DNA of 64,000 nt from a virus, in IMG/VR virus record IMGVR_UViG_3300013126_001527, positions 1 through 64,000 of that record; one strand, written 5' to 3'. Made by a program: the position numbers and the translations under genes. The notes beneath the pieces were generated by a model. That model saw only the letters and a program-made list of their open reading frames with translations, did not search any database and had not been told where the DNA came from. Every line of letters starts with the position of its first letter. Positions within the stretch are counted from its first letter, which is position 1. Shown one piece after another: positions 46,074 through 63,476 of the stretch.

Positions 46074-47096
46074 ATGTTTTTACAGCAATTATTTGAAGCA
46101 ATAGATAAAAGGCATGCGGCATTCTGTTTTGGTCGTATGAATCCACCTACTATAGGCCATGCACAATTAATCAACACCGTAGCTAAAAGTGCTGCAGGTG
46201 GCGATTACTTTATCTTTACTAGCCAAAGTCATGATGCTAAGAAAAATCCCTTAGACTACAGTACAAAAGTTAAATTCCTTAAAGCCCTATTCCCAGAATC
46301 AGCAGGTCATATTGTACAAGATGCCGGTTTAAAAACTATCATACAAGTAGCGCATTGGTTGTATGCTAAAGGTTATCGTAGTGTTACCTTTGTAGCTGGT
46401 AGCGATCGCCTAGCAGACTTTAAAGAGTTGCTAGAGAAATACAACGGAGTACAAGGTCCAAATGGTTTTTATCAATTTGACGCTATTAATTTTGTTAGTA
46501 GTGGGGATCGCGATCCTGACGGAGAAGGATTGGCCGGAGTAAGTGCTAGTGCTGCACGTGCCGCTGCTAAAGCGGGTGATGAACAGGCATTTGCACAAGC
46601 AACTGGCGCAGGCGAATTAACTAATCAACTATATCATGCTGTACGTAAAGGTATGAACGTAACTAAAGACTTAAATGAATTTGCCACGGATGGTTTCAAC
46701 GGTGGTGATGACGAGGGTTTTAGTCCAGCTATAGCAAAAATGGCAGAAGAAGATGGATTTACCAAAGGTGTTGGGCTAGCTGATGTTGCTACACTAGCAC
46801 GAGCGATGGCTATAAACGCTTGGGATACGCAACACGGTGGATTGTACAAACAATATTTCGCTAAAGGGTTTAAGGAAGGTCGCTCAAATAAAGTACAGCA
46901 CGACAATAAACGTTATAATCTCAACTTAACAGTAAACAAGGATGGCTCTATCAGTCAAAGCGTAGCAGAAGATGCCAGCGGCTACATTCCAAAGAATAAA
47001 CGAGAAGCCAAAGACCCACGTTGGTCAAATGCGCTCACTGTAGACGTACACCCAGATACACCTCGTAAGAACATGAAGGCACTTGGTTTGATCTAA
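46074..47096 (+). CDS. Cytidylyltransferase-fold protein with short N-terminal helix
   Basis: 340 residues. Residues 1-13 (MFLQQLFEAIDKR) form a short amphipathic helix of the kind shared with later genes. Residues ~15-200 are a nucleotidyltransferase fold of the NMNAT/cytidylyltransferase type: GRMNPPTIGH (20-29), an (H/T)xGH motif, and GVSASAAR as the ISxT-like element. The C-terminal part contains ASGYIPKNKREAKDPRWSNA then LTVDVHPDT, a block recurring in T4-like marine phages. The nucleotide substrate is unknown; NAD-linked or coenzyme chemistry is possible. Confidence 0.65.
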   Translation: MFLQQLFEAIDKRHAAFCFGRMNPPTIGHAQLINTVAKSAAGGDYFIFTSQSHDAKKNPLDYSTKVKFLKALFPESAGHIVQDAGLKTIIQVAHWLYAKGYRSVTFVAGSDRLADFKELLEKYNGVQGPNGFYQFDAINFVSSGDRDPDGEGLAGVSASAARAAAKAGDEQAFAQATGAGELTNQLYHAVRKGMNVTKDLNEFATDGFNGGDDEGFSPAIAKMAEEDGFTKGVGLADVATLARAMAINAWDTQHGGLYKQYFAKGFKEGRSNKVQHDNKRYNLNLTVNKDGSISQSVAEDASGYIPKNKREAKDPRWSNALTVDVHPDTPRKNMKALGLI

Positions 47097-47434
47097 TGCC
47101 GTTTGTAAATTTACAAGTAGAAGTACATTGCCAACAGCCTAACTGGGTTTCTCGTCCCCATAATTTAAAATATCAAAATCCTATATATAGAATTTATCTA
47201 AATGGTGACTTATTTACTGAACGCACATGGATATGGGATAGTAAAAGGATCTTTATTAGCGAAGATATATGGGCTCAGTTAGGAAAAAATATATCTTATA
47301 CAATCAAATTGGTTCCAGTTTTAAAGAATTCCGCTCAGGCTAAATTTAAACTAACCAATTTAGAGGTCAACGACGTTGAAGAGGTAGTATTTGATTCTGT
47401 CAATGACTGCCAGTTAACATTTAAAATACGATAA
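47096..47434 (+). CDS. Small beta-sandwich hypothetical protein
   Basis: 112 residues, TAATG overlap. NLQVEVHCQQPNWVSRPHNL, then YRIYLNGDLFTERTWIW and LTNLEVNDVEEVVFDS. Strand-rich and probably of the same general class as the protein at 45597, though similarity is weak. Confidence 0.45.
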   Translation: MPFVNLQVEVHCQQPNWVSRPHNLKYQNPIYRIYLNGDLFTERTWIWDSKRIFISEDIWAQLGKNISYTIKLVPVLKNSAQAKFKLTNLEVNDVEEVVFDSVNDCQLTFKIR

Positions 47435-47437
47435 ATA
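47430..47437 (+). promoter_or_regulatory. Late promoter-like box GATAAATA close to a start codon
   Basis: One mismatch from TATAAATA, overlapping the previous stop, only 6 nt before the ATG at 47444. If used, the mRNA would be almost leaderless. Confidence 0.4.
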
Positions 47438-47443
47438 GATTAT

Positions 47444-47602
47444 ATGAAAATCTTTGAAGTAATTACTATTAAAGAAAATGCTAGCATAGGCTCAACTGCT
47501 TCGGGCGGTGTTGCTACAAGCATGGGCGGCGGTGCTGGTTTTGGTACTAGTATTTTTATGCGCAGAATTCCAAAGAAAACTAAAAAGAGTAAACAAAAAT
47601 GA
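47444..47602 (+). CDS. Small Gly-rich/basic protein (52 aa)
   Basis: MKIFEVITIKENASIGSTAS, then GGVATSMGGGAGFGTSIFMR and a basic end (RIPKKTKKSKQK). A short N-terminal helix of the same type as neighbouring genes followed by Gly-rich and Lys-rich stretches, which might bind DNA in the head (inference). Overlaps the next gene by four bases. Too short for family assignment. Confidence 0.6.
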   Translation: MKIFEVITIKENASIGSTASGGVATSMGGGAGFGTSIFMRRIPKKTKKSKQK

Positions 47603-50514
47603 ATATGAAATCCCTATTAGAAAAGATGATGAAGTTTGCCGGAGAACCTGATCAAACAGCTGGTGATCAAGTGCGCAGTTCCGAAAAGGTCAAAAAAAGT
47701 GGCAAAGACCATCCATTCAAAGGTCGATTAGTTGGCGACAGCATAGAACCGCAGACTAATATGTTAGAAGAACTTAGCCAAGAATCTAAAGACAAAAACA
47801 TCGAATGGGCCTTATCAGAGGCATGGGCAGAATTTAAAGAAGCTGCATTTAAAGATACCGCAGAAAAGCGCACTACACGTAAAGGCAGTCGTCCTAGTCG
47901 AGGTCATGAGCCTGTAGCTCGTTATAAAAAAGTAGAAGAAGCCACCCAAGAAGAAATTTGGCAAGGTTGGAAAATTCGCTACGAAACCACGCCTCAAATT
48001 AAAGGACAACCACTACGTTGGATGGTATGGCACACTAAACGAGGCACAGAAAGTGCGCACGAAGGACAGGCAAATACCCCGCAAGAAGCTATCGAAGCTG
48101 CAAAAGCATGGATTCAAAGTGGTGGTAATGCTAAGGAAATCACTACTAGTACAGTAACCATCGACTTTAATGTGAAATTTGCCAACGAAATTGTCAACGG
48201 CAATGATTTTTATGCTAAAATCGTACAAGGACCAACTCTACTAGTTTCAGGTGACGCAAAACCGGGATTCAAACGTAGTCATATTCGTACACAAAAGAGT
48301 AAAGCCACACAAGACACTACGCTATTGCCAATGATTAGCCTGTCAAATTCTGAAGCAACATCTGCAGGATTAAAGGCCCACGGTCGTTATATCTTAGGCG
48401 ACACACAACAAATGGAAGATGGTACACTAGCATATCCGTTAATTTATCAAAGCACAGTACAGGCCAAAGGCGATATAATGCGGTTGGGTAAACCTGGATT
48501 GACTGTAGCGATGAACCGAGAAGTTAGTGGCTTAGAAGAAACAGACCAGGGCATCAGTAAAGCTAAGGAAACTGAGTTTCATACTAAATTAGATACCCTA
48601 GTACACGATACATTTGGTCGCCGTAAAGAAGAAATGAAAGAAGGTTGGGGTCGTGGTCATGACCGCGTTAGCCTACCAGATGAGCCAAGCACATATTGGT
48701 CAGGTAAAGGCCAACTACAAAAAGAATACGAAGCACTGTACGATCAACTAGTCCCAGCATCAGGTGCGGCAGATACTATTGAAGGTGAAGTACTACGTGC
48801 GGCCAGTAAGATTGTTTATCGTCACTACAACGATGGTGATGAATTTAATGCTCCAAGTTTTGGCCAACTTGAAGAATTTATTGGCAAGGTTACTAGTTAC
48901 GATGACCTAGCACACAAGGCCACAGAATTCGCTCTAAAAGCCAACGGCAACTATCATCCTAACCACGGTTGGGACAGCCTAGACGTTATGGAATACGGTC
49001 CTGAAGACAACAGTGATGACTATGATGAAGATGACGGCTGGGATGAAGAGGAAGAAGATACTAGCTGGGACCAAGATGACAATGACGAAGATTTAGATGA
49101 AAGCGATAAAGAAGAGTTCAAATCAACTTATAAAAAGTTCAACGACAAAGTTAAACAACAAAAAGAAAAAGGTGTAGCAGAAAGCTACTACAAATATTCT
49201 GTAAAAAATCCAGATGGTAAGGGTGGAGTATACCACAAAGCAGAACCTGGTTACACAGACCAAATTATTGCTAAAGATATTGCTAAAGCTAAAAGAGATA
49301 ACCCTCGGGCTACTATTCAAGCAACTAAAGATGGTAAACCATTTGACTGGGAAGCTGTATTAGGTGAAGGTATTGTTGATAAAGTTCGTGGTGCTAATTA
49401 TAAACGTCTAGCAAAACGTTCATTTGATAAAGCATACGATGCGCATCAAGACTCTATAGACGCACCAAAAACACCAGCAGAAAGAAGATCAGCACGTGCT
49501 GAATTTAACAAACAATATGACAAAGGTGTTGCTCGTGAAAAACTTGCTAAAGAATTAGGTGAAGGTTGGGAAAGTGGTCCTGAAGAACGTGCCCCGCGTG
49601 AACGTGATCCAGATTGGGAATACGATCAACGTCGCCAAGAGAAGATGGACATTGAAGCTGAGAAAGCTCAAGCACAACGCCCACAAGAACAATACTATAC
49701 TTTAGTAGGTCGTGGTCCTAACTATGAAGCAAACTATGCGTTCCCTGGTGAATATGCTACGCAAGATGAAGCTGTGGCAGCACGTGCTCGTCTAATGGCT
49801 GATCCTAGTACACCAAACCCACGTGACATAGGTATTAGTAAACGTACACGTTACTTAGACATTAAAGAAGGTCGTGAAACTCCTCTACGTGATAAAGAAG
49901 ATTACGCTGCTAAGAAGAAAGCCTTGCAAGACATCCAGTCTGATCCAAGCACAGCGCAAGATTTAGAACTATCAGTAGAAGTTATGCGTAGACTAGCTGG
50001 CTTAAAACAACAGGCTAAAGCTATGGGCCTAGACGAAAGCCGTGCTCACAAGATTTTGGCTCGTAAATTAGCTGACATTGAACGTAAACCTACTGCTGCC
50101 GATACAGACGATGATGCAGCCCGTGCAGAGAAAGCTAAAGCTGATTATGCAAAATATGTAGCTAAGATGAAAAAAGAAAATCCTAATTTTATTCCTATGT
50201 TCAAAATAGATGAATATGGTGCAGATGCTACTACCTCTGCAACTTCGTCAACTATTGATAAAACCAAGGTAAAAGATATAGCGCAGGCAAGCCAAGCACT
50301 AAAGGCCGCAACTGGCAGTACTGCACCTGCACAAAATATTGTAAAAGCAATCGATGCTGCTAGCCAAGGAAAACCAGTTGGACAGCAGGATATGAAGGCT
50401 ATAGAACCCCTAATGAAAGACATTGCTACTGTAGCTAGTGCACCTAAATTAGCAGGTCAATTTAGATCTTTAATGCAACAGGTAGATAGAGAACAAAAAC
50501 TTCAAGGAAAATAA
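47599..50514 (+). CDS. Giant charged multidomain protein, possible processed internal protein
   Basis: 971 residues, hydrophilic, Lys/Glu-rich, no transmembrane segment. N-terminus MNMKSLLEKMMKFAGE resembles the short head-targeting helices discussed in the findings. An acidic low-complexity stretch lies at ~465-510. Later, short repeated domains appear (YYKYSVKNPDGKGGVYHKAE; YYTLVGRGPNYEANYAFPGE). Two sites match the T4 prohead protease pattern LxE|G: LGE590|G and LGE655|G. MRRLAGLKQ near ~805 parallels the C-terminal LRKLAGIK of the protein at 60546. Function unknown; possible polyprotein packaged in the capsid. Confidence 0.6.
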   Translation: MNMKSLLEKMMKFAGEPDQTAGDQVRSSEKVKKSGKDHPFKGRLVGDSIEPQTNMLEELSQESKDKNIEWALSEAWAEFKEAAFKDTAEKRTTRKGSRPSRGHEPVARYKKVEEATQEEIWQGWKIRYETTPQIKGQPLRWMVWHTKRGTESAHEGQANTPQEAIEAAKAWIQSGGNAKEITTSTVTIDFNVKFANEIVNGNDFYAKIVQGPTLLVSGDAKPGFKRSHIRTQKSKATQDTTLLPMISLSNSEATSAGLKAHGRYILGDTQQMEDGTLAYPLIYQSTVQAKGDIMRLGKPGLTVAMNREVSGLEETDQGISKAKETEFHTKLDTLVHDTFGRRKEEMKEGWGRGHDRVSLPDEPSTYWSGKGQLQKEYEALYDQLVPASGAADTIEGEVLRAASKIVYRHYNDGDEFNAPSFGQLEEFIGKVTSYDDLAHKATEFALKANGNYHPNHGWDSLDVMEYGPEDNSDDYDEDDGWDEEEEDTSWDQDDNDEDLDESDKEEFKSTYKKFNDKVKQQKEKGVAESYYKYSVKNPDGKGGVYHKAEPGYTDQIIAKDIAKAKRDNPRATIQATKDGKPFDWEAVLGEGIVDKVRGANYKRLAKRSFDKAYDAHQDSIDAPKTPAERRSARAEFNKQYDKGVAREKLAKELGEGWESGPEERAPRERDPDWEYDQRRQEKMDIEAEKAQAQRPQEQYYTLVGRGPNYEANYAFPGEYATQDEAVAARARLMADPSTPNPRDIGISKRTRYLDIKEGRETPLRDKEDYAAKKKALQDIQSDPSTAQDLELSVEVMRRLAGLKQQAKAMGLDESRAHKILARKLADIERKPTAADTDDDAARAEKAKADYAKYVAKMKKENPNFIPMFKIDEYGADATTSATSSTIDKTKVKDIAQASQALKAATGSTAPAQNIVKAIDAASQGKPVGQQDMKAIEPLMKDIATVASAPKLAGQFRSLMQQVDREQKLQGK

Positions 50515-50531
50515 CAATAATACGTCAATTA

Positions 50532-50563
50532 AAAAGGGCCCAATTTGGGCCCTTTTGTTTTTT
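50532..50563 (+). terminator. Bidirectional rho-independent terminator
   Basis: A 10-bp inverted repeat (AAAAGGGCCC / GGGCCCTTTT) with 5-nt loop, T run on the plus strand and A run upstream for the minus strand. It sits between two convergent genes. Confidence 0.85.
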
Positions 50564-51000
50564 TAATCATCAAAATTTTCTGGTTCTATGGCTTCTTGTT
50601 GTAACTCTCTATCCAATCGTTTGAGATAGGTCTTAGCTGATGTGAGCTTTTTAAACATGCGTGTTGCCCGTTTTTTATTCAAATATAAACAGAACATACC
50701 ACTTTCATCTTTTTTAACTTCTGCCAGAGTATCACGTTTAAATCCAATATGTACATTATACACCGGATCAGATTGTAATAGTGTGTCAAATCCAAGAAGT
50801 ATGCTATCGCCTTTTTGCCCCACTTTAACTAATTTATCATCAAATACCGCACTGATGTTGGCTTTTCGCATGATTAATGCCGCAGTTCGTGGGTCTTGAA
50901 CTTGTATATAACCTTGTTCATCGACCCAAAAATCTACACCTTCTTCAAATCCATTAAATGGATCTGATATAAGATCTAATAATTCGTCAATTTGTGTCAT
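50563..51000 (-). CDS. Hypothetical protein on minus strand with consensus promoter
   Basis: 145 residues from ATG 51000 (upstream in-frame starts would reach into the promoter). MTQIDELLDLISDPFNGFEE, then VDFWVDEQGYIQVQDPRTAA and NKKRATRMFKKLTSAKTYLK. A mixed alpha/beta protein with basic C-terminal helix. No family recognised. An exact sigma70 promoter indicates early expression, unlike its late neighbours. Confidence 0.6.
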   Translation of the reverse strand: MTQIDELLDLISDPFNGFEEGVDFWVDEQGYIQVQDPRTAALIMRKANISAVFDDKLVKVGQKGDSILLGFDTLLQSDPVYNVHIGFKRDTLAEVKKDESGMFCLYLNKKRATRMFKKLTSAKTYLKRLDRELQQEAIEPENFDD

Positions 51001-51038
51001 GATGTAAAATACCCATTGAGTTGTTGATAATAGCAAAC

Positions 51039-51067
51039 ATTATACATTCAAATCTAGAGTTTGTCAA
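51039..51067 (-). promoter_or_regulatory. Sigma70 promoter (minus strand)
   Basis: On the minus strand TTGACA (51067-51062), 17-bp spacer, TATAAT (51044-51039): exact consensus, 38 nt before the start at 51000. Divergent from the late box at 51081. Confidence 0.85.
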
Positions 51068-51080
51068 GTCTTTTTGTTTT

Positions 51081-51088
51081 GATAAATA
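51081..51088 (+). promoter_or_regulatory. Late promoter-like box GATAAATA
   Basis: One mismatch from TATAAATA. It is 28 nt before ATG 51117 and 16 nt before ATG 51105; the spacing used elsewhere favours 51117. Confidence 0.45.
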
Positions 51089-51116
51089 TCATATAAGCAC
51101 AAGTATGGACAATATT

Positions 51117-51509
51117 ATGTTATTAACGGAATTCTTTGAAACCTCGGAGGGCAACTCGTATGCAAAGCCTACGACAGCGTCGAGCGTTAAAGAAACTAAA
51201 CGCAAAATTACAGCAAAAAATGATCCCTGCTGGAAGGGTTACCACATGGTGGGCACAAAGTCTAAAGATAGCAAAGAAGTGCCTAACTGCGTTTCGGGAG
51301 AAAAAGGGTCAATGAATGAAACAGCCGATTTGAGTCATATAATTCAAGCACGCCAATTAGCACATCAAGCCATGACAGATACTAGTAAGCGTCATGAATA
51401 TTTTGATTTTATGAAACATTTACGTGACAAACACGGTAAAGAATACAGTATAAAAATCCATCAAAATGCTACTAAATTAGACAGCATCAAAGAAAGTATC
51501 AAGGAATAA
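51117..51509 (+). CDS. Small basic protein with head-targeting-like N-terminus
   Basis: 130 residues from ATG 51117 (ATG 51105 is an alternative adding MDNI). N-terminus MLLTEFFETSEG is followed by a Lys/Thr-rich stretch with DPCWKGYHMVGTKSKDSKEV then PNCV, a short motif common in T4-like marine phage proteins, and a basic helical C-terminus (RHEYFDFMKHLRDKHGKEYS). Possibly an internal head protein (inference). Confidence 0.55.
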   Translation: MLLTEFFETSEGNSYAKPTTASSVKETKRKITAKNDPCWKGYHMVGTKSKDSKEVPNCVSGEKGSMNETADLSHIIQARQLAHQAMTDTSKRHEYFDFMKHLRDKHGKEYSIKIHQNATKLDSIKESIKE

Positions 51510-51512
51510 TAA

Positions 51513-53792
51513 ATGGCAGATTTACAATATATCTACACCGTTGACCGTCCGGGACCAAGAGCATTTACTATGCCTGATGGTTTTGAAGAAACAGTTGAAG
51601 TTCATTTATGGGGTGCAGGTGGTGGTACCGGATATGGGGGTGCACCAGGGGGTGGTGGCGGTTATGTTAAATCTACTTTAACCATACAATCTGGTGATAT
51701 CATTGAAATTGGTATCGGATTACAAGGAAGCCCTGCACAAAGTGCAACCGCTGGAGGTGGTGGCGGTAATAGCGGCATTGGTTCTAGATATAGTGGCGGT
51801 ATTGGCGGAGGTAGAGGTTACTGGTGCGGTAACTCAGGCGGACCGTTCCCAAGCGGTGGTGGTGGTGGGGCAACTGCCGTATTAGTCAATGGTGTTGCTC
51901 AGGCAGTGGCTGCTGGCGGTGGTGGTGGCGGTGGCTACGGCCACAGAGGTGCCAAATATGCTGGGTTACCGGGTGGTTCATATAGATCGCTCACTGGAAA
52001 TACCCAAGGTGGTGCTGCAAGTTATGGTGGCGGTGGTGGTGGTGGATATCTTGGGGGTGCTGCTGGATATAGTTCAGGACATGCTGTAGTTGGTGGTAGC
52101 GGCGGACAAAATTATGGCACTACAGCAGAAGCAGGCAATGGAGCCACGGCTGGCGGTAGAAATACCATATATGCACCGGTTGCATCTTATGGTAACTCTG
52201 GTTATCACGGATATGCTGTATTGGTGTTTACTAGAAGATTCCAAATTTTTAATAAAGATAGCAGTGAATGGAAACGTGTTTTAAATGCTTGGGTTAAGAC
52301 ACCGCAAGTGTTTATCCCCGTAACAGTTCCGCACACACCTCAAACAGTTACATTTTCTTCTGAAGGCACACATACATTTACAGTCCCTACTGGAATTACG
52401 TCAATTAACGTAACTGCCATTGGTGGTGGTGGTGGTGGCGGTGGCGCTGATGGCGCCGCATCGGGCGGATATCCGGGCGGCGGATACCCTGGAAGTAAAA
52501 TAGTCACAACATTATCTGTTACCCCCGGACAAACATTAACTATCGTTCCGGGCGGTGGTGGTGGCGCTGGTGTAGGTAGAGCTAGCAGTGCAAGACCTGG
52601 TAGTGGTGGGGTTGGATATTACCCTGGTGGCCGCGGTGGGTATGCAGGACCTTCTGGTAGCTCTGGAGCAGGTGGTGGTGGCGGTGGCGCAACTGTAATC
52701 CTGTCAGGAGCTTCTCCTGTGTTGGTAGCAGGTGGTGGTGCTGGTGCAGGTGGTTCCGGTAACGGTAACTATGGAGTAGAATCCATTGGGACTTTTAATT
52801 CTAGTACCTCGGGTGCTGCAGGCCAAGACAAGTCCGGTGACGGGGGCGGTGGTGGTGGTGGCGGTGGTGGCTACCCATATGGTGGTGCTGGTGGCCCAAC
52901 TCGCAGTGGGGATGCAGGAGCATATTCTGGTACAACTGGACAAAGTTTAGTGCCCGCGGGAGGACAACTAGGCACTGGATCAAACGGCGGCAGTTATGCA
53001 AGTGGCACGGGCGGACGAGGCAGCGTAGAAATAACATATACACAACCCGATGAAACTATTTTAGTTGAAGAGGGCGGATGGAAAGGAATACAACAAATAT
53101 ATACAAAACACAACGGTGAGTGGAAACAACTAATTAGTACCGATACAGTAAATGATGGACGTACAGAGAAATTTCTTGTACAAGGATCGTATATATGGAC
53201 AGCACCGGATGATATTATACGTGTTAAAGTATTAGTATACGGTGCTGGCGGTAGTGGTACTGGCGGTGGTGGTGGTGCAGGCGGATATGCTGAAAAATAT
53301 CTAACAGTAACTCCTGGAAGTTCGTATAGTGTCGTTGTAGGAGCAGGCGGTATAGGTAGCCAAGATGGGCAATCAAGTAGTTTTAATGCAAATATCATAG
53401 CCTATGGAGGTTCTGCTGGTACTGCAGCAACTACAGGTACAGATGCAGGTGGTGCTGGTGGCACAGCAACAGGTGGGGACACTAACTTAACTGGTGCTGC
53501 AGGATCTGCCGGTAAGGCGATTTACCACTACTACTATTGGTGGTGGGGTTGGGGTGGTTACTGGGGTTGGGGTGGGTATAATACCTATTCCTATGGATTT
53601 GGTTCATATAACTACGGGTATAATTACAACTACTGGGGCGGTTACTGGGGTTGGGGTTGGCCTCGATCACATTATGCAGGGTATGAATACGGTGTTCCTG
53701 GTGTAGGGTATGACAGTATTGGTAGCGGAGCAGTTGGTCGTGCTGCAGATTCTCCTACTGGAGCAACTGGGGCAGTGTTTGTAATTTATTAA
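51513..53792 (+). CDS. Glycine-rich tail adhesin-like protein
   Basis: 759 residues. Three tandem copies of a module that begins with a beta strand (AFTMPDGFEETVEVHLWGAG; TFTVPTGITSINVTAIGGGG; YIWTAPDDIIRVKVLVYGAG) and continues into long polyglycine runs. Such runs resemble the polyglycine-II sandwiches of gp38-type adhesins in T2/S16-like phages. The C-terminal ~671-726 is extraordinary: almost only Trp, Tyr and Gly (YYYWWWGWGGYWGWGGYN). Likely a receptor-binding tip. It is far from the main tail block and lies next to late genes. Confidence 0.65.
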   Translation: MADLQYIYTVDRPGPRAFTMPDGFEETVEVHLWGAGGGTGYGGAPGGGGGYVKSTLTIQSGDIIEIGIGLQGSPAQSATAGGGGGNSGIGSRYSGGIGGGRGYWCGNSGGPFPSGGGGGATAVLVNGVAQAVAAGGGGGGGYGHRGAKYAGLPGGSYRSLTGNTQGGAASYGGGGGGGYLGGAAGYSSGHAVVGGSGGQNYGTTAEAGNGATAGGRNTIYAPVASYGNSGYHGYAVLVFTRRFQIFNKDSSEWKRVLNAWVKTPQVFIPVTVPHTPQTVTFSSEGTHTFTVPTGITSINVTAIGGGGGGGGADGAASGGYPGGGYPGSKIVTTLSVTPGQTLTIVPGGGGGAGVGRASSARPGSGGVGYYPGGRGGYAGPSGSSGAGGGGGGATVILSGASPVLVAGGGAGAGGSGNGNYGVESIGTFNSSTSGAAGQDKSGDGGGGGGGGGGYPYGGAGGPTRSGDAGAYSGTTGQSLVPAGGQLGTGSNGGSYASGTGGRGSVEITYTQPDETILVEEGGWKGIQQIYTKHNGEWKQLISTDTVNDGRTEKFLVQGSYIWTAPDDIIRVKVLVYGAGGSGTGGGGGAGGYAEKYLTVTPGSSYSVVVGAGGIGSQDGQSSSFNANIIAYGGSAGTAATTGTDAGGAGGTATGGDTNLTGAAGSAGKAIYHYYYWWWGWGGYWGWGGYNTYSYGFGSYNYGYNYNYWGGYWGWGWPRSHYAGYEYGVPGVGYDSIGSGAVGRAADSPTGATGAVFVIY

Positions 53793-54633: not shown

Positions 54634-55083
54634 ATGGTAGACGAAGTATTTGACGACGAAGTGACCACAGTTCCGCAAGAAACTGTACAAATTGAAGTTC
54701 CAGCACCTATAACTACAGCCCCATGGGGATTTCATGCTATAATGGACTGTAATAATGTTGAATTAGACAAAATTCAAAGCGAATCAAATATTAAAAATTG
54801 GCTTAGTGATTTGTTAATTAAAATTGATATGACCCCAATTGGTGATCCAATTGTTACCAAAACTGGTGTAGGTATGCCCGATAAAGAGGGATTTACCGCA
54901 GTGCAGATTATTGTTACTAGTAACATTATAGCACATTTTATCGACCAAGATCGACACATTTACATTGATGTGTTTAGTTGTAAAGAGTTTAATCCAACTC
55001 TTGTCGAAGAATCAATTAAACAGTTTTTTGGTGCCAACACAGCAATTAAAAAAATATTATTGCCCAGAAACGCGGCTATTTGA
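54634..55083 (+). CDS. speD: S-adenosylmethionine decarboxylase-like protein
   Basis: 149 residues. WGFHAIMDCNN near the N-terminus and the core TSNIIAH...IDVFSC match prokaryotic SpeD. Ser96 would become the pyruvoyl group; His101 and Cys116 keep the exact spacing of the family's His68 and Cys83. The residue before the serine, normally Glu, is Thr95 here, so self-processing is uncertain. SpeD makes decarboxylated SAM for spermidine synthesis and is known in T4-like cyanophages. Its 3' end overlaps the convergent desaturase-like gene by 27 bases. Confidence 0.75.
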   Translation: MVDEVFDDEVTTVPQETVQIEVPAPITTAPWGFHAIMDCNNVELDKIQSESNIKNWLSDLLIKIDMTPIGDPIVTKTGVGMPDKEGFTAVQIIVTSNIIAHFIDQDRHIYIDVFSCKEFNPTLVEESIKQFFGANTAIKKILLPRNAAI

Positions 55084-56187
55084 TTTAAAAAATATTATTG
55101 CAAAATAATATTGAGGATTGACAAACTTAACCCAACTTGGGCCCATAAAAAGGTCTCCCACAGAGTTGGGTATTTTTTTGAATCGTTTGTGATGCTCATA
55201 ATGCCAGCTTTGATTAAGAGCTATTGGAAACAACCAAGGGTAATTCCTTTCACCAAATCTAGACAAATACCAATCATGCTGAAAATTTAACACATTAACC
55301 AAGGTATAAGGTAATAAGAATAAAAATACGACTCCCGATATACCAATGGTCCAGGCTAGTATTATCAAACACAGTATTTTTATCTCTACTAGATAATTGG
55401 TGGTTTTAGGTTTTCTTATTAGGCTAATATCGTAGTCTTTTAGTCCTGGCACCAATTCTTGCTCAACACGTTTAGTAAATAAGTCTTGTTCAGTTTTCCA
55501 AAGTCGATGATGTGTTTGATGATAACTAACCACCCCATCTTGGTCATGGTGTGTACTAGGCACTAATATCTGAATATATGTTTCTATTAAGAATCTAACT
55601 ATTTTATTTTTAGGTATAATGTAACCATGTTCAACGTATTCGTGTCTGATTACATCTGCAGGCATCCACAACAAAAATCCCAAACACAATCCATAGATAA
55701 ACAACTGAAGATCAAAAAATGCACAGACTAACAAAAAATAGAATATTAGAGTCTTGTACTCTAGTAAAAAATAAAAATTTTTTAGATTAATTGTACTCAG
55801 TAACTGATCAACCACACTGTAGTTAAACCGTTTTGCTATAGAAATTTTATGAGTAATTTTTATAAAATCAATATTATTAGTTGGCCATTGGTCAGCCCCT
55901 TGTACCTCAATGCCTGCAGATCGTAAGTTATATTGCAATTTTGCCTCATCTACCAATGTTAGCGATTCCCATGAAAATTTATCAACAGGATTGGAAATAG
56001 ATTTAGTTATACTAGTGAGCAGGCTTGTTGGGGTTACTTTGTGAAAAAAATAACTTAATGCTTCACGCAACTCCCATAGTTGACATTCTTCTAAAGATTT
56101 GTTAGTATACGTGTGTTGATTGAACCAGTCTACAAATCGTTCATAGTCCGGTAAATTTTTTTGAATTTCTTGAGTGAATATAGTCAT
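55057..56187 (-). CDS. Membrane desaturase/hydroxylase-like protein 3
   Basis: 376 residues from ATG 56187. Residues ~1-130 are a soluble, helical extension. Hydrophobic helices start at ~145. The His boxes are complete: HEYVEH (182-187), HQTHH (223-227) and HYEHH (329-333). This is the membrane di-iron fatty acid desaturase/hydroxylase superfamily, but the architecture differs from the two shorter desaturases and box 3 keeps all three His. Substrate unknown. Confidence 0.7.
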   Translation of the reverse strand: MTIFTQEIQKNLPDYERFVDWFNQHTYTNKSLEECQLWELREALSYFFHKVTPTSLLTSITKSISNPVDKFSWESLTLVDEAKLQYNLRSAGIEVQGADQWPTNNIDFIKITHKISIAKRFNYSVVDQLLSTINLKNFYFLLEYKTLIFYFLLVCAFFDLQLFIYGLCLGFLLWMPADVIRHEYVEHGYIIPKNKIVRFLIETYIQILVPSTHHDQDGVVSYHQTHHRLWKTEQDLFTKRVEQELVPGLKDYDISLIRKPKTTNYLVEIKILCLIILAWTIGISGVVFLFLLPYTLVNVLNFQHDWYLSRFGERNYPWLFPIALNQSWHYEHHKRFKKIPNSVGDLFMGPSWVKFVNPQYYFAIIFFKSNSRVSGQ

Positions 56188-56194
56188 TTCCAAT

Positions 56195-56202
56195 TATTTA
56201 TA
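56195..56202 (-). promoter_or_regulatory. Late promoter box (minus strand) close to a start codon
   Basis: On the minus strand exact TATAAATA, 7 nt before ATG 56187, so any transcript would be nearly leaderless. Confidence 0.45.
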
Positions 56203-56215
56203 ACATACATTTTAC

Positions 56216-56223
56216 GCTAAATA
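56216..56223 (+). promoter_or_regulatory. Late promoter-like box GCTAAATA
   Basis: A TATAAATA-like octamer (two mismatches), 5 nt before ATG 56229, back-to-back with the minus-strand box at 56195. Confidence 0.3.
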
Positions 56224-56228
56224 CATAA

Positions 56229-56768
56229 ATGAAAGCACAAGAATTAATTAGAGCAACAGCAAACACCAAAATCTACTTGGACATGGATGGCGTTCTTGCT
56301 GACTTCTTTGCAGAATACGCAAAACTGGCCGGAGTTAAGTCTGGCAAATACCGAGATATTCCACCTGCTAGTCAAGACCCAACATTAAACAAGATGGTTG
56401 GCACAGACTTTTTCTATAGATTACCAAAGTTCAGCACTGCTGACAATTTAATTCAGCTGGTCTTAAGTTATGCACCAACATACAACATTTGCAGTAGTCC
56501 CCTGCGTGGCGATCATGCTAACAGTGAGCAGTGGAAACGCGAGTGGATTAAAAAGCACTTAAGTCCGCAACCTAAAGAAATAATTATTACAGGTATGAAA
56601 GAACGCCATGCTGTTAACGCTGGTGGCAGCCCTAATATCTTAATCGATGATCGAGGCAGTAATATTCTTAAATGGCAAGCTCGCGGAGGTATTGGTATCA
56701 AATATCAAGCAGACGAAGATAGTCTAGACAAAGTAGCAAAAGGATTAATGTTAGCATATGGTTACTAA
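56229..56768 (+). CDS. HAD-superfamily 5'-nucleotidase-like protein
   Basis: 179 residues. After a short N-terminal helix (MKAQELIRATAN) comes the HAD motif I LDMDGVLADF with nucleophile Asp18 and acid/base Asp20. Later, ICSSPLRG supplies motif II and ILIDDRGSNI motif IV. Closest in plan to phage/bacterial 5'(3')-deoxyribonucleotidases, which dephosphorylate dNMPs. The N-terminal extension matches neighbours with capsid-targeting-like peptides. Overlaps the next gene by 11 bases. Confidence 0.7.
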   Translation: MKAQELIRATANTKIYLDMDGVLADFFAEYAKLAGVKSGKYRDIPPASQDPTLNKMVGTDFFYRLPKFSTADNLIQLVLSYAPTYNICSSPLRGDHANSEQWKREWIKKHLSPQPKEIIITGMKERHAVNAGGSPNILIDDRGSNILKWQARGGIGIKYQADEDSLDKVAKGLMLAYGY

Positions 56769-57492
56769 ACTATTAGAAGGTGGTAATATTTTTAAAACAG
56801 CAGATGGTCAACCTGCCACTACACGTATTGCTCGAGATAATGTTGTACCCACAGTGCAATGGTTAGAACAACTCACTGGATTAAATCTTGTAGACAATAT
56901 GCTAGGATCAACTAGTCGCAAAGAAACAAGTGGTGACTTAGACCTAGGTGTAGATAGTACTAAAATTTCTAAAGAAGTATTAATACAGCAACTACTTCGT
57001 CAAGGTATTCCGCAGACAGATATACGTAAAACAGGTGACAGCGTGCATCTAAAAACTCCTATCTTAGGTGATCCAAGTAACGGATATGTACAAACTGACT
57101 TTATGTTCAGCGACAACCCACAGTTCCAAAGTTTTAGCTATGCTGGCACTGGCGCAGGCGAGTTCAAAGGTGTGCATCGTAACATCTTGCTGGCCAGCAT
57201 TGCCAAAGCACTAGACATGAAATGGAGCCCAAAATTTGGTTTGGTCAACCGAGAAACTAACGAAGTAATTAGCAACAATCCTCAAGAAATAGCTAAAACT
57301 TTAGTCAACGGTACTGTGCAGGATTTGGCATCAGTTGAAACTATAGTAAATAAGATAAAGAACCAAGCAAACTACGAACAACTTGTAGCAGACGCAAGGG
57401 AATATTTTGCTCGTGATAATTTAGTATTGCCAGAGTCGGCACCATTACCAGGCACCGGTGCCTGGTTTAGATTGTGGAAGGATCAACTATGA
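56758..57492 (+). CDS. Nucleotidyltransferase-fold protein
   Basis: 244 residues. LGSTSRKETSGDLDLGVD (49-66) is the pol-beta-type nucleotidyltransferase signature GS-----DLDL, with Asp60 and Asp62 as metal ligands; VQTDFMF supplies the third acidic residue. Substrate unknown: candidates are tRNA, protein or antibiotics-type acceptors. Ends with ATGA overlap into the next gene. Confidence 0.65.
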   Translation: MVTKLLEGGNIFKTADGQPATTRIARDNVVPTVQWLEQLTGLNLVDNMLGSTSRKETSGDLDLGVDSTKISKEVLIQQLLRQGIPQTDIRKTGDSVHLKTPILGDPSNGYVQTDFMFSDNPQFQSFSYAGTGAGEFKGVHRNILLASIAKALDMKWSPKFGLVNRETNEVISNNPQEIAKTLVNGTVQDLASVETIVNKIKNQANYEQLVADAREYFARDNLVLPESAPLPGTGAWFRLWKDQL

Positions 57493-58829
57493 GAGCACGT
57501 CAGTTTATATTAGAATACAGCAGAGAAAAGACTGCCACGGTCTTTGGTAATAAACTCGTCGCTGCTGTAAGCAAAGATAAAAGTCATGATACCGCTATAG
57601 GTAAAATACGTGCTTTTATTGATCAAAAGACCAAAGTTGGCAGCGGTATTGAGCCAGAACAGCGTCAACAGATCTTAGATCAGGTCATGGCCATGTTAGA
57701 GTCAGCTGATCCTACCGCTAATAAAGAATATGTACAATGGTTAGCCAAAGTCTACGCCAACGAAGGCGTTATGATGGAAGACCTTGTGAGTAAGACTACA
57801 GAATGGTTACAAAAGTACGACCTGTACAAAAAGAAAAAGTTCTTTAAAGACAGCGATGCTAAATTGGCCAACATCATGAACTTGTCGTGGCGGGACCTAT
57901 GGGACATCAGTATACGTGCTGACTTTCAAATGCGTGTCCAACAAGCAGAAGAAAAAGCCATGCCCAAGGGCAACGCTGAGCAGGTCTACGAAAACGATAA
58001 GGTTCGCATTATTATTCCTAAAGATAAAGAAGCTGCCTGCTACTATGGACAGGGTACCACATGGTGTACAGCCAGTACACAAAGTACTAACTATTTTAAC
58101 AGCTACAGCAAAGACGGTCCCTTGTATATTCTACTGCCTAAACAGCCCCAGTATGAAGGTGAGAAGTATCAACTACACTTCCCTAGTGGCCAGTTCATGG
58201 ATGAGCAGGATCGCAACGTAGATGATATTATAGAACTATTAGACATGCGTTTTGGCAATCTAGTAGACTTCTTCCGTGAGCGTGAACCGCAGATCAACGA
58301 TTGGCTGGTGTTTACTCCAGATGAAATACTAGAACCTTTGATCGCTAAGATTAAAACCGCAGTCAACGATCATGTACATGAAAAGGTCAACGAATGGGAA
58401 GTAGAAGACGACTACTGGTGGGAGTATTTACGTAAACAAGGTTACGTATACCCAGAAGGGCATGAAGAAGAAGGTGGCATTGATTGGGATGCCGTAGCAG
58501 ATGCTGACGAAAGTTATACCAGTTGGAACTACGAAGCCAGTGACTACATTAGTAGAATAGTTGGTGCTGTGGATCTATCTCCACAGGAAGTACGCAATCT
58601 AGCAGAGGAAGTAGGTCGTGAATGGGGTGCTGATACCCAGGGCATTGATGACCTAGATAAAATTATGGCCTATGCTATTGAACAGACTAACAACCGCAAC
58701 GAGGGTGATGGTGGCGTAGCAGAGTGGATCAATGATCACATCTACATTAAGAAACGTGACGGCCAATGGGATGTCAGCTTGTTGTACACAAACAAAGACG
58801 GCAAGCGTACAGAGTACCCAATACATTAA
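57489..58829 (+). CDS. Hypothetical protein with GxGTTWCTA motif
   Basis: 446 residues. N-terminus MRARQFILEYSREK (targeting-like helix). Central motif GQGTTWCTASTQ (187-198) followed by YFNSYSKDGPLYILLPK is found in various phage and plasmid proteins, including PcfJ-like ones, of unknown function. The C-terminal part is acidic, Trp/Tyr-rich (WEVEDDYWWEYLRKQGYVYP). No catalytic assignment. Confidence 0.55.
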   Translation: MRARQFILEYSREKTATVFGNKLVAAVSKDKSHDTAIGKIRAFIDQKTKVGSGIEPEQRQQILDQVMAMLESADPTANKEYVQWLAKVYANEGVMMEDLVSKTTEWLQKYDLYKKKKFFKDSDAKLANIMNLSWRDLWDISIRADFQMRVQQAEEKAMPKGNAEQVYENDKVRIIIPKDKEAACYYGQGTTWCTASTQSTNYFNSYSKDGPLYILLPKQPQYEGEKYQLHFPSGQFMDEQDRNVDDIIELLDMRFGNLVDFFREREPQINDWLVFTPDEILEPLIAKIKTAVNDHVHEKVNEWEVEDDYWWEYLRKQGYVYPEGHEEEGGIDWDAVADADESYTSWNYEASDYISRIVGAVDLSPQEVRNLAEEVGREWGADTQGIDDLDKIMAYAIEQTNNRNEGDGGVAEWINDHIYIKKRDGQWDVSLLYTNKDGKRTEYPIH

Positions 58830-58830
58830 T

Positions 58831-59280
58831 ATGAGAGCTGAAGAGTTTAATACAAGCAAATTTAATTGGGCAGACTACGCTGATATGCCTACTAAAGATA
58901 AACTTGAACTAATCGAAAGTCTGTACTCGGGATCGAAAAATTTATTTGAGTCCAACGACGCTGAACAAGTTGATTATTTTTTTAATTTACGGGCCATGTC
59001 TGATCCTGTTGAATTAGACCAAACCTATATTGTAAACTTTCTAGGTTTAATAAACAATCGTGTTTTAACATTACAAGATCCGTTTGTAGGCAAAGTATTA
59101 CAACAAGTTGAAGATCAGTTTGAGATTGAATTACCTGACGGTAGAACTGCTATGTTCCCAGACAAATCACTCAGCGATAAGATGGCTACTTCTATGTTTT
59201 TCTTTGCTGGAAATGTATCGTACGACAAATTTAGAACAACAGTTAAATTAAAATTTAGCAAGGATTTACCAAAGATTTAA
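58831..59280 (+). CDS. Hypothetical protein with targeting-like N-terminus
   Basis: 149 residues from ATG 58831, one base after the previous stop. MRAEEFNTSKFNWADYADMP, then LELIESLYSGSKNLFESNDA and ELPDGRTAMFPDKSLSDKMA. No family recognised. An upstream in-frame ATG at 58732 would overlap the previous gene by 98 bases and is rejected. Confidence 0.55.
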   Translation: MRAEEFNTSKFNWADYADMPTKDKLELIESLYSGSKNLFESNDAEQVDYFFNLRAMSDPVELDQTYIVNFLGLINNRVLTLQDPFVGKVLQQVEDQFEIELPDGRTAMFPDKSLSDKMATSMFFFAGNVSYDKFRTTVKLKFSKDLPKI

Positions 59281-59357
59281 AGAACACCACCTTAGGACCT
59301 GTTATTCGTAACGGTACGGTGTTGGCGGCTGCTGCCATGGAGGGATGCCAAAAGTGA
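59259..59357 (+). other. Short open frame without start codon after 59280
   Basis: In the -1 frame relative to the previous gene a stretch reads GFTKDLKNTTLGPVIRNGTV then LAAAAMEGCQK before TGA. It looks protein-like but lacks a good start and a canonical slippery site. It may be a decayed gene piece or an unrecognised extension. Accounts for most of the 89-bp gap to the next gene. Confidence 0.3.
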
Positions 59358-59369
59358 GCACAGGATATT

Positions 59370-60536
59370 ATGAGAGCACGTGATTTTATTAAAGAACTAA
59401 GACGAAATCCAGAACAAAATGTTCGCGTGTCTGGTTGGGATCAATTTGTTCAAATATACAATCAACACAAACAACAAGGCAACCCCAGCAACTTATATAT
59501 CAGCCTAACTGAATTAGAAAAGTTGGGCATTAATCCATTAAGTGAACACGAAACACCAAATGGTGTTTATGCTTATCCTGCAGACTATGTAATCAAAACT
59601 AAAAGTTTTGAGGACTTGCCCTATGCTGGTGATCAAAAATGGGTAAATGTGTTTACAGTTACTCCAGAAGCTAATATTCTTAAAGTTGATACCGTGGGTT
59701 CAGATGAAGTTAAAGAATACTTAAAACGATTAGTCACTGCATACCCAGAACGAGCAGATGAAATTAAACAATTTGCTAAATCAGCTCCTAAGGAAGCATT
59801 TGCCAACGATGGATGGGATGATATTCCTAATCGCAAAAAACTCAAAAAACTGCCTGGTGCTCAACTATGGTATATAACCTTTGAGTTGAGCGAATATGAC
59901 TCCAATCTTTGGAACAAACTGTTTAGAGTTATGGGCATTGATGGCGTAGCGGATTCTGGCATGGGCATTATCCATCATATGGAACCTGTTCAAGCCGTGT
60001 TCTTTAATCCTAAGGCAATTAAGATGATTGGCAGATTCCCAAACTCTGCCGCTCCAACAGAAAAGTCTATAACTAACCGTCGCAAAGAAGGGCAACAGCA
60101 AACTCAGACTAAACGAAATCTTAACTCAATGAGCGAACGAGATCAAATTGAGTGGATGAATAGAAACCACTACCACGAACACTTTAGATATATCAGAAAC
60201 CCATCACCTAAAGTCCAAAAAGCAGCTATTAAATTAGACCCAAGAAATATTTTATGGATTAAAAATCCAAGCCCAGAGTTATTAATGTATGCTGTTAAGA
60301 AGGAACCGCATCTATTAGATCATTTCAAAAATCAAACATTTGAATTACAGATGGCTGCTATAGGTAAAGATTGGTCTAACATTGAATACTTAGATCATCC
60401 TTTGCCGCAGACAGTTCAACAGGTTATGAGCATGATACCTCGCAAAGAGTTAGAACAACTATATCAAGATCAAATTGAATATATTGAAAACGGGTGGGGA
60501 AATCCTCCTTATTCTTGGTTACCTCCTCTTAGATAA
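59370..60536 (+). CDS. Protein with targeting-like N-terminus and DUF4116-like repeats
   Basis: 388 residues. N-terminal helix MRARDFIKELRRNPEQ. Residues ~40-230 include NPLSEHETPNGVYAYPADYV, DLPYAGDQKWVNVFTV, and SGMGIIHHMEPVQAVFFNP, faintly like ADP-ribosyltransferase-type folds (low certainty). Residues ~275-365 hold repeats of the form RNPSPKVQKAAIKLDPRNIL / KNPSPELLMYAVKKEPHLL, like DUF4116 repeats. Confidence 0.5.
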   Translation: MRARDFIKELRRNPEQNVRVSGWDQFVQIYNQHKQQGNPSNLYISLTELEKLGINPLSEHETPNGVYAYPADYVIKTKSFEDLPYAGDQKWVNVFTVTPEANILKVDTVGSDEVKEYLKRLVTAYPERADEIKQFAKSAPKEAFANDGWDDIPNRKKLKKLPGAQLWYITFELSEYDSNLWNKLFRVMGIDGVADSGMGIIHHMEPVQAVFFNPKAIKMIGRFPNSAAPTEKSITNRRKEGQQQTQTKRNLNSMSERDQIEWMNRNHYHEHFRYIRNPSPKVQKAAIKLDPRNILWIKNPSPELLMYAVKKEPHLLDHFKNQTFELQMAAIGKDWSNIEYLDHPLPQTVQQVMSMIPRKELEQLYQDQIEYIENGWGNPPYSWLPPLR

Positions 60537-60539
60537 ATA
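60532..60539 (+). promoter_or_regulatory. Late promoter-like box GATAAATA close to a start codon
   Basis: One mismatch from TATAAATA, overlapping the previous stop and 6 nt before ATG 60546. Confidence 0.4.
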
Positions 60540-60545
60540 CTAATT

Positions 60546-63476
60546 ATGCGATACGAACAAATCAAACCCCTATTAGACGAAGCTGTACTTGACGAAGTCA
60601 AGATGAGCCCTAGTGCTCTACAAAAATTTGCCAACAGTCCAGAAGCAGAAGGTATGCTTATGGGTATAGAATTTGAAATGTGCGTGCCAAATGTTGCTGT
60701 AGATGACGACAGTGGCGACGGCGAATATGACTATGACATGGACGAACGTTGTTACAGCATAGATGATATTATAGAATTCTTCCGTAACGGTGAAATGTCA
60801 AACTTAGGTTCCAGCAGTGCTCAACGCCTACGCGAAAAGATGTGGGACGAATACCTAGACTGGACTAGTGATAAAATTGCAGACAATCTAGACACAGACG
60901 AATTGAATGAACGTGTTCGTAATCGTTTACGTGATGACATAGACTGGGAAGATTACGTTGATGATGCTCGTGAAGAACTAGGCGACGAAGTTCCTGACGA
61001 TAAAGTAGAAGAACGGGCTAAAGAACTAGCAGAAGAAGCATTAGATAATGAAATGAGTGATGCTAGTAGTCGCAACTACCAATATTACTACGACGAAATA
61101 CGCCAAGAGATGGAAGATGAAATGCGTGAAGATGCGGACTACGATCAAGAAGCGTGGTTGCGTGACATTGGCGTAGATTACATGAGCGACGCAGAACGTG
61201 AATGGAGCTTAGATTGGCCACACTGGAGTTACTATGGTAGCGACGGTGAAATGGATGTAGAAAGTGTAGGTGACGAGTTTGGTCGTAGTATGGGCTTAGA
61301 ATACGTAAACACATCAAACAACTACCACGGTGCTCGTCGTGATGGTAAAAACTGGATTGTAGAGCCAGATAGTTCAATTGACGCAGATTCAGGCGATGGT
61401 GGTTTAGAGTTTGTTAGTCCTCCTATGCCAATCAAAGACGGTTTAGAAATGCTACAAAAAATGTACAAGTGGGCCAAGGATAACGGTTGTTATACTAACA
61501 AGTCAACTGGCCTACACATGAACATTAGCGTTCCAGATATGACCATTGAAAAACTGGACTATGTTAAACTAGCCCTGTTCATGGGCGACGAACATGTGCT
61601 TAAACAGTTTGGTCGTCAATATAACAGCTATGCTAAGAGTGCTATGAGTAAGATTAAGGACCGTATTCGTCCAGAAGATGTTCCGCACGTACTAGCACAA
61701 ATGAAGCAACACCTAAACAGTCTAGCCAGTAAAACCATACACAGTGGTATTACAGACAAATACACTAGTATCAACACCAAAGACAACTATGTAGAATTCC
61801 GCGGCCCAGGTGGCGACTACTTGGATATGAATCCATTTGAGGTTACTAACACAGTCCTACGTCTGGCTATGAGCCTGCGTATTGCTACCAATCCAGAAGC
61901 ATACAAACAAGAGTATGCTAAGAAACTATACAAATTAGTAGAACAAGACGGTGACTGGACTGACCCCAATAACTCAGTGGCTCTATTCAGTCGTTATGCT
62001 CTAGGCGAAATTAACAAAGACGAATTAGTCAGTAATGTACGTCAGGCACAGGTAGCACGTAAAGAGAAGAAAGGCGAAGAACTACAGTTCTGGGTCATGA
62101 ACAAAGACGGCACGGGCGGCAAGCAGTTAGTGTTTGCTCAAAGTGAAACAGAAGCCATTATCAAAGGTGGCAAGCAGATGGGCATGAACCGTGAGAAGAG
62201 TATTAGCACGCTCAAAGCTGAGGTAAAATCTGCGCCTATTGATTTAGAAGGCATGAGCAAGGAAGAGTACTATCGTCAGGTCAACGATTTACCTACATAC
62301 ACATTAGAACAATTTGTCAATGAGATTAAAAAACGAGAACTCAGTACATTAGAAAAAGCTCTAGACACTGTTAAGAATCGTAGCATGAGTGGCGACTTAA
62401 GTGCTACTAACTACGAGTTCCTACAGGCAGTTATTGAGCGTGAAATTGCTCGTCGCAGTCTACCAGTTGATGACGGTGAGATGACACAGTGGAGAGTACA
62501 TATTACTCAAGGACCACACGCAGGTGTATCTACAATTATCAACGCACCAACACCACGTAATGCCAAGGTAGCGGCACAGGCTATATTCCGTAGTCAATTA
62601 AATGACGCATTTATAGATTACGACTATTTAGAAGCAAGAGAATATACTTTAGCAAGTAGATTACAAGTAGGTACACCAGAACCAGCAAATGCTCAAGAAA
62701 TATACGACAGTTTACCTAACACTTATAAAGCATGGTTAGATGGGTTAGAAGCAGGCGAATCCAGTGTAATACAAACTGTAATAGACAGTGTTGCCAACGA
62801 TACAGGGGCAAATGCTCAGGCATTAAACATAGAACAACGTGATTTAATTATCAGTAGAGCGCAGGCAGAACTACGTCGTCGTGGGCAAGCAACTCAAAGT
62901 AGCGAAGAAGAAATGACCCGCCCATGGCACGTATGGTTAGCAAATATACAGGATCATACAGATGATCAACTGCGTAATGCTCGACATGTCATGGCAGTTG
63001 GCCGAAATGAACCAGGTGCTCGTGGTGCTAGACTAACTGATCGTCAACGTCAGGCTATTGTAGATGAGATTGATGATGAGTTCCGCCGCAGATTAGCTAG
63101 AAGTATTGAACGCGGTGAACAAGCTCGTGCGGCACAGCAAGGTGATATTATAGCACCAGGACTAGGCGAGGTGGACCCGTTGGCGGCACAACAAGCAGAA
63201 TTAATCAACCGTGATGATCCTGTTACATCAAACGATCCTGAAGCTGATAGTCCATTAGAGGTGCCAGGACAAGGTACGCAAGAGTTTCAGATTGTAAATC
63301 CACACACAGGATCTATTGTAGCAGTAATACGTCAGGCTACCCTAGATCACGCTGTAAGTAAAGCACGTCAATGGGAACAAGACCTAGGCTTATCAGCAGG
63401 TGACTTAGAAGTTCGTCAAATTGGCGAAACTAACGAAAGTATTAATCAATTACGCAAATTAGCAGGCATTAAATAA
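60546..63476 (+). CDS. Giant protein with amidoligase-like domain
   Basis: 976 residues. N-terminus MRYEQIKPLLDEAVLDE (targeting-like). Residues ~37-450 show an amidoligase (COOH-NH2 ligase, PF12224-type) plan: GIEFE (40-44), WIVEPDSSID (270-279) with GGLEFVSPP (285-293), TGLHMNIS (321-328) and YVEFRG (415-420), interrupted by a large acidic helical insertion (~95-215). Residues ~480-970 are charged, with a FQIVNPHTGSIVAVIRQA-type small domain and ending INQLRKLAGIK. Amidoligases form amide bonds in peptides or wall components. Target unknown. Confidence 0.65.
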   Translation: MRYEQIKPLLDEAVLDEVKMSPSALQKFANSPEAEGMLMGIEFEMCVPNVAVDDDSGDGEYDYDMDERCYSIDDIIEFFRNGEMSNLGSSSAQRLREKMWDEYLDWTSDKIADNLDTDELNERVRNRLRDDIDWEDYVDDAREELGDEVPDDKVEERAKELAEEALDNEMSDASSRNYQYYYDEIRQEMEDEMREDADYDQEAWLRDIGVDYMSDAEREWSLDWPHWSYYGSDGEMDVESVGDEFGRSMGLEYVNTSNNYHGARRDGKNWIVEPDSSIDADSGDGGLEFVSPPMPIKDGLEMLQKMYKWAKDNGCYTNKSTGLHMNISVPDMTIEKLDYVKLALFMGDEHVLKQFGRQYNSYAKSAMSKIKDRIRPEDVPHVLAQMKQHLNSLASKTIHSGITDKYTSINTKDNYVEFRGPGGDYLDMNPFEVTNTVLRLAMSLRIATNPEAYKQEYAKKLYKLVEQDGDWTDPNNSVALFSRYALGEINKDELVSNVRQAQVARKEKKGEELQFWVMNKDGTGGKQLVFAQSETEAIIKGGKQMGMNREKSISTLKAEVKSAPIDLEGMSKEEYYRQVNDLPTYTLEQFVNEIKKRELSTLEKALDTVKNRSMSGDLSATNYEFLQAVIEREIARRSLPVDDGEMTQWRVHITQGPHAGVSTIINAPTPRNAKVAAQAIFRSQLNDAFIDYDYLEAREYTLASRLQVGTPEPANAQEIYDSLPNTYKAWLDGLEAGESSVIQTVIDSVANDTGANAQALNIEQRDLIISRAQAELRRRGQATQSSEEEMTRPWHVWLANIQDHTDDQLRNARHVMAVGRNEPGARGARLTDRQRQAIVDEIDDEFRRRLARSIERGEQARAAQQGDIIAPGLGEVDPLAAQQAELINRDDPVTSNDPEADSPLEVPGQGTQEFQIVNPHTGSIVAVIRQATLDHAVSKARQWEQDLGLSAGDLEVRQIGETNESINQLRKLAGIK

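Follow-up and report, generated by a model that had tools for sequence, protein, structure and literature searches.

What does a recurring N-terminal tag signify on about a dozen otherwise unrelated proteins of a large T4-like phage? The question is raised by a gene cluster in the virus record IMGVR_UViG_3300013126_001527, a 90,895-bp sequence whose source is environmental DNA only. The window analyzed here is the first 64 kb (64,000 nucleotides) of that record; the remainder was retrieved and the whole record was scored. Approximately 12 unrelated proteins, a superoxide dismutase (SOD) included, begin with a short peptide that resembles the capsid-targeting peptide of T4 and carries a predicted head-protease cut site. 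Most likely these N-termini act as propeptides for capsid targeting, as in the T4 internal proteins, and are borne by proteins that would be expressed late, packaged and probably injected.

In T4, propeptides of 10–19 residues direct the internal proteins (IPs) to the core, and the gp21 protease cuts after L/I-x-E (PMC9026906). IPII and IPIII both start MKTYQEFIAE^A (the caret marks the cut), as read from the T4 record and as quoted in the preliminary description of the locus. In IPIII, targeting depends most on residues 4 and 7 and processing on residues 8 and 10; with Asp at position 10, processing is blocked while targeting stays intact (PMC9026906). Recognition of internal proteins through a signal sequence is known for the T-even phages (PMC12373910, PMC9391042), and a review proposes the capsid-targeting sequence (CTS) as a general packaging device in T4-like phages (PMC9026906).

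A run of tagged genes

The nine N-termini on which the preliminary description drew are all real: each starts at an ATG codon of the + strand within 46074–63476, and the start of MLLTEFFET at 51117 lies inside a longer TTG frame. The run continues beyond 63476 for about 4.5 kb, to record position 68032, with four further members past the window. A relaxed pattern, M[KR]xx[EQDN][FLIV], is matched by 8 of the 21 genes in 46074–68032 and by none of the 110 elsewhere in the record (p=1.2e-7), and the literal pattern by 5 of 21 against 0 of 110 (p=7e-5). These p-values are inflated because the pattern was derived from six of its eight matching genes. The other two, MKASDFLNE (record 66432) and MRAQDFLTE (record 67083), lie beyond the window and are thus out-of-sample matches; both fall within the five genes adjoining the cluster, with a chance of about 0.0015 (10 of 6555 pairs among 115 remaining genes). 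Among 3,210 ATG codons on both strands, nine open a frame with pattern and cut site, and six of the nine are cluster gene starts. The motif is therefore not equally common elsewhere in the record.

A predicted head-protease site ends the tags

Most of the tags terminate in [ILVF]-x-E immediately before the body of the protein, which is the T4 gp21 motif L/I-x-E. This putative cut site, absent from the preliminary description, is the key feature of the tags and a stronger one than the front-half pattern. A propeptide of about 7–20 residues ending in this way is present at nine loci. Six of them are in the window: a cytidylyltransferase-like protein (46074..47096; MFLQQLFE^A; phrog_3041, 4.7e-51, and PF01467 over its cut-off), a 52-aa basic protein (47444..47602; MKIFEVITIKE^N), a Pol-beta-like protein of nucleotidyltransferase fold (56758..57492; MVTKLLE^GGN), the WCTA protein (57489..58829; MRARQFILE^Y), a protein with the DUF4116-like repeats named by the earlier account (59370..60536; MRARDFIKE^L; phrog_5925, 1.8e-17) and an amidoligase-domain protein (60546..63476; MRYEQIKPLLDE^A; PF12224, 5.5e-9). 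Three are past it: MKASDFLNE^A (record 66432), the SOD with MRAQDFLTE^S (record 67083–67616) and MSNWEVYVRE^S (record 67613). The nucleotidyltransferase had been named as a member with its own short tag overlooked; its low-confidence model resembles DNA polymerase lambda/mu. Comparison of the WCTA fold with the PDB gave no match, and a scan found no viral relatives of the 59370 protein.

Near-matches to the site, FFE, MFE and LLE, are found respectively in a 130-aa protein (51117..51509; MLLTEFFE^T; phrog_4359, 1.6e-8), a tagged M78-like peptidase (record 65233) and a 971-aa protein (47599..50514; MNMKSLLE^K). The last had been listed as a looser member; its start is present and the support for its tag is weak. 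It has no family match in PHROG or Pfam profile searches, and a relative of its middle part stands behind MRFGEIKKQLAE^G in L006.

Where the protein bodies diverge, the predicted cut-site triad is kept. Eight homologues of the WCTA protein, of 27–87% identity and one of them with a tag five residues longer, all keep M1 and E9 within the tag and Y10 behind it. L5, E7, G8, G9 and N10 of the nucleotidyltransferase are invariant in four homologues, and L10 and E12 of the amidoligase in six. Viral homologues of the cytidylyltransferase start MFLRDLFE^A, MFLSEIFE^S and MFLTEIFE^S. AlphaFold confidence is lowest at residues 1–8 of the nucleotidyltransferase and 1–15 of the WCTA protein, so that in these models the tags lie outside the folded bodies. 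Unrelated families sit behind similar tags: contigs that carry relatives of the nucleotidase, the cytidylyltransferase or the WCTA gene contain, in the neighborhood of these genes, 90 distinct tagged N-termini with varied bodies.

Superoxide dismutase as a test case

A family with well-known cellular members allows the tag to be separated from the body. The protein at record 67083, MRAQDFLTE^SKEKLKLIDLPYSR..., is an Fe/Mn SOD (PF00081, 5e-11; PF02777, 2.3e-24) in which the His/Asp ligand segments are present by eye when it is aligned to solved SODs. Cellular SOD chains align from their residue 3–4 to residue 15–16 of the phage protein, so that its first 11–12 residues are an addition. A scan of IMG/VR for SOD relatives gave 225 matches, of which 80 were kept, with 55 distinct N-termini. 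An N-terminal extension with the site is found in 54 of the 55: 53 by script, together with L050, where the site is present from a longer ATG (MQYDIRRYIMVVE^G). The sole untagged form is L065, which starts MKLKLEKINY. Random internal stretches pass the site test in 23% of cases, against 43 of 45 SOD N-termini. The tags themselves vary widely while the site is kept, for example MRDLITLVE^S, MKVNDFLTE^A, MHSIRNTLTLLE^S and MYDVVEKITE^S. In mixed contigs, the frequency of [KR]-first tags close to SOD was also compared with that farther away; no enrichment was seen, because most distant SODs use other tag styles.

Late boxes and head machinery

T4-type replication genes are present in the window phage, and T4-late-like boxes stand 12–36 nt before the tagged units. 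There are 18 copies of ATAAATA on the + strand and three on the - strand, and most of the + copies are 12–45 nt before a gene start. ATAAATA precedes 47444 (by 13 nt), 51117 (box at 51082), 60546 (by 13 nt) and record 65233. CTAAATA precedes 56229 and, at 46045..46051 (+), 29 nt before the cytidylyltransferase start, 46074; the latter box is T4-late-promoter-like by consensus match only. The evidence from these boxes is positional, since their total counts are no higher than in shuffled sequence.

A gp21-like protease is found in the relatives C48C1, G006, G012, G015, G023–G026 and G032; of the nine relatives of at least 200 kb, seven encode one. In G024 (355 kb), which has a clamp loader 77% identical to that of the window phage, a portal-sized gene, gp21 (236195–236833), a scaffold-like gene and a capsid-like gene follow one another in this order. 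The scaffold proteins of C48C1, G006, G012 and G015 contain 10–11 [ILV]xE[ASG] sites compared with 2.0–2.8 in shuffled sequence; T4 gp22 has 10. The capsid protein of the relatives would be cut after ...SLAE (...SLAE^SATAGATSAGNVATLNR), and the 52-aa protein of the window reads ...TIKE^NASIGSTASGGVATS, a likeness that would place the cut of the tag and that of the capsid protein in a common context.

About 20 relatives of the 52-aa protein (L117, L157, L184, L189, L203–L209 and others) are likewise small tagged basic proteins. Directly after the predicted cut, they and the 52-aa protein carry a block, NASxGxTxxGxxAT, that resembles the N-terminus predicted for the mature major capsid protein in relatives including PA5oct and G024.

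A detected homologue and the cyanophage enzymes

Proteomic information is available for Pseudomonas phage PA5oct. Its SOD homologue EST35_0261 is 44% identical to the SOD of the record, is tagged (MNDSIKKYISIAE^A, ending ...ISIAE^A) and carries the depositors' ESI-MS/MS flag; it is annotated as a hypothetical protein. Tag and site together occur in 5 of 93 PA5oct proteins flagged by mass spectrometry (MS) and in 2 of 352 unflagged ones (p=0.005), so that here too the motif is not equally common in other genes; EST35_0150, 0205, 0238 and 0381 are tagged as well. Several related patterns were tried; the figure given is for the finding's pattern plus site, and the others gave p-values from 0.001 to 0.11. 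Bare [ILVF]-x-E within the first 20 residues was rejected as a signal, being uninformative (21 of 93 versus 79 of 359), and tag pattern and site are both required. PA5oct is distant from the window phage, and its detection data support packaging, short of proof.

Homologues of the 46074 cytidylyltransferase are found in 534 phage records, mostly of cyanophages. The Kyanoviridae enzymes share about 45% identity with it over the core. Among the starts that were read, four have T4-like tagged N-termini: MKKFSAFLNE^A in ACG-2014b, MKNFHQFITE^A in S-SRM01, MKKFSEIIE^A in Melnitz-3 and MKKFSAFLSE^A in Syn9 (gp184); MKTLKFFLES in S-BM3 is less clear. The records annotate the enzyme only and leave the tag unmentioned. 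The annotated cytidylyltransferase start of C48C1 (L083, OQ984149.1; 20055–21398) loses both the tag and the beginning of the domain. An upstream GTG (VIKNFSQYLLE^E in frame) would give MIKNFSQYLLE^E, and the start in the record seems wrong.

Proposed route and its precedents

The route suggested by these sequences is that of the T4 internal proteins. The proteins would be synthesized late, and the short helix would bind each to the scaffold core of the prohead during head assembly. Next would come a cut by the phage's gp21-type protease behind the Glu of [LIVF]-x-E; the mature protein, set free within the head, would be retained with the DNA and probably ejected into the next host. The predicted cargo comprises the cytidylyltransferase-like enzyme, the nucleotidyltransferase, the WCTA protein, the amidoligase, the M78-like metallopeptidase and the Fe/Mn SOD. 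Packaging and cleavage are predictions, the former well supported by the sequence comparisons. The proteins had earlier been proposed to act as injected early effectors; injection and early function we infer from the T4 precedent.

T4 Alt, a packaged and injected ADP-ribosyltransferase, is likewise an enzyme that loses a short propeptide and is then delivered from the head, as proposed for the window phage. The window yielded no Alt homologue, and the enzyme classes there are others. The Alt propeptide has seven residues (PMC9026906). IPI, IPII and IPIII of T4 offer the closer design, late genes with a short MKTYQEFIAE^A-style tag and a gp21-type site before unrelated bodies; they are small and inhibit Type IV restriction enzymes (PMC12373910), whereas the bodies in the window phage are mostly larger and enzyme-like, about 12 of them lie in 22 kb, and their packaging is a prediction. 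In phiKZ and SPN3US, head proteins are cut after a Glu motif by a gp21-related protease and ejected (PMC9026906, PMC10052503); there the motif is S/A-x-E, and these phages belong to another lineage, with a virion RNA polymerase.

Weighing the interpretation

Several observations weigh against the proposed route. The Peptidase_S77 profile finds no gp21 in the 90.9-kb record fragment, and gp21 was not found in G010 or G011, both larger than 200 kb. The capsid and portal genes of G010 lie at opposite ends of the contig, with the break inside the head block, and so the gp21 region would fall in that break. Genome-wide, few genes of G024 (4–5) combine the [KR]-first tag with the site, although the shuffle mean is lower, 0.2–0.6. 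Cytosolic enzymes, among them ribonucleotide reductase and FtsH, are also on the MS list of PA5oct. Finally, two members of the cluster lack the P1 Glu: the HAD 5'(3')-deoxyribonucleotidase-like protein (56229..56768; MKAQELIRAT; PF06941) and a 149-aa protein (58831..59280; MRAEEFNTS) with no family match in profile searches. Both carry the front half of the tag. They may be targeted yet uncut, given that Asp10 in IPIII stops processing and not targeting, or may not belong to the cargo. Among the HAD homologues are MRAEELIRAT..., forms with MRASDLNLPE^G and untagged forms (MSKPEVYLDMDGV), the last of which are a useful natural control.

The gp21 profile found no match on 16 SOD-bearing records of 37–354 kb. 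Nine of these, of 100–145 kb, are read as fragments because neither portal nor capsid protein was found in them.

Set against these points, the conserved gp21-type site, the gp21 and scaffold proteins of relatives, the added N-terminus of SOD and the late boxes argue strongly for capsid targeting.

A different outcome after packaging and cleavage is the strongest competitor, though an unlikely one: the tagged proteins could have core or stabilizing roles in the head or in assembly and not be injected effectors. In T4, gp21 also acts on the core proteins gp22, gp67 and gp68, which function in assembly (PMC9026906), and the 52-aa tagged protein has a block in common with the major capsid protein. 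Many of the bodies, however, are enzyme-like (SOD, nucleotidyltransferase, cytidylyltransferase, amidoligase) and fit a scaffold poorly, and the T4 IP proteins of the same design are injected (PMC12373910). It is improbable that the helix is some other targeting signal, to a replication compartment or a membrane, with a Glu motif unrelated to gp21. The HAD tag without Glu would suit a separate role for the front half, but the [LIV]-x-E ending is the head-protease consensus and recurs in the scaffold and capsid proteins of relatives, and the window phage has T4-type replication genes and late boxes. Import into a phage nucleus was set aside as a role for the tag, this being a T4-type phage in which the Glu site fits head maturation. 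Chance or composition, that is, short N-terminal helices made alike by many K/R, E and aliphatic residues, is very hard to credit: bare [ILVF]-x-E is common and the earlier pattern was selected after the genes were seen, but none of the 110 genes elsewhere in the record matches, two out-of-sample genes do, and the triad is invariant in diverged homologues and present in 54 of 55 SODs.

Neighboring genes and shared modules

An untagged 582-aa protein (63476..64000, +) has only its beginning in the window. The 130-aa protein at 51117 contains a CWxGYxxxGxK...VPNCV module common to other tagged proteins. Small C-terminal modules are common to this protein, to L001 3432–4079, to the C-terminus of L001 2233–3435 and to many relatives; they read CWxGYxxxGxKxKGGxxVxNCV, DGKKPGRKGLAKRSGVNC...QRMAHWCANMKSGK and HNISCAKTPDKAICKARRRWNC. 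Near the SOD gene of L025, an open reading frame (ORF) that opens with MKIVEVVTPIIAYHGTVDDITQF has a tag-like start followed by YHGT and, by eye, a candidate likeness to ADP-ribosyltransferases, the class of the packaged T4 enzyme Alt.

Pfam identifies three fatty acid desaturase genes (window 20440–21189 and 25793–26536; L001 5009–5797, -), and two further look-alikes were seen by eye with no Pfam match (window 55057–56187, -; L002 9405–10187). An acyl carrier protein (L002 4461–4688) is on the same 90.9-kb fragment as the desaturases. A tryptophan halogenase-like gene lies at window 15930–17432 (phrog_2928, 5e-103). GTP cyclohydrolase I (L001 16693–17388), a QueE-like radical-SAM protein (L002 1657–2526), a QueD-like protein (L002 6974–7537) and, by eye, a TGT-like protein (L001 11793–13367) form a set that possibly serves 7-deazaguanine DNA modification.

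Implications

No reports of packaged SOD or of a CTS on SOD, on this set of enzymes or on cyanophage enzymes were found in the open literature, and the injected proteins of T4-like phages outside the T-evens are almost unknown. Being readable from sequence, a rule of tag plus cut site would yield a testable list of packaged proteins from many unannotated genes; it also points to natural tags with which phage heads could be loaded with enzymes. The rule would account for the presence of SOD-type enzymes in a late gene cluster. Its wider form has about an even chance of being right: in a clade of large T4-like phages (relatives of 200–364 kb) an interchangeable tag would make virion cargo of ordinary enzymes and so bring a dozen or more activities into the host before phage expression, and the same rule would hold for the cytidylyltransferases in hundreds of cyanophage records.

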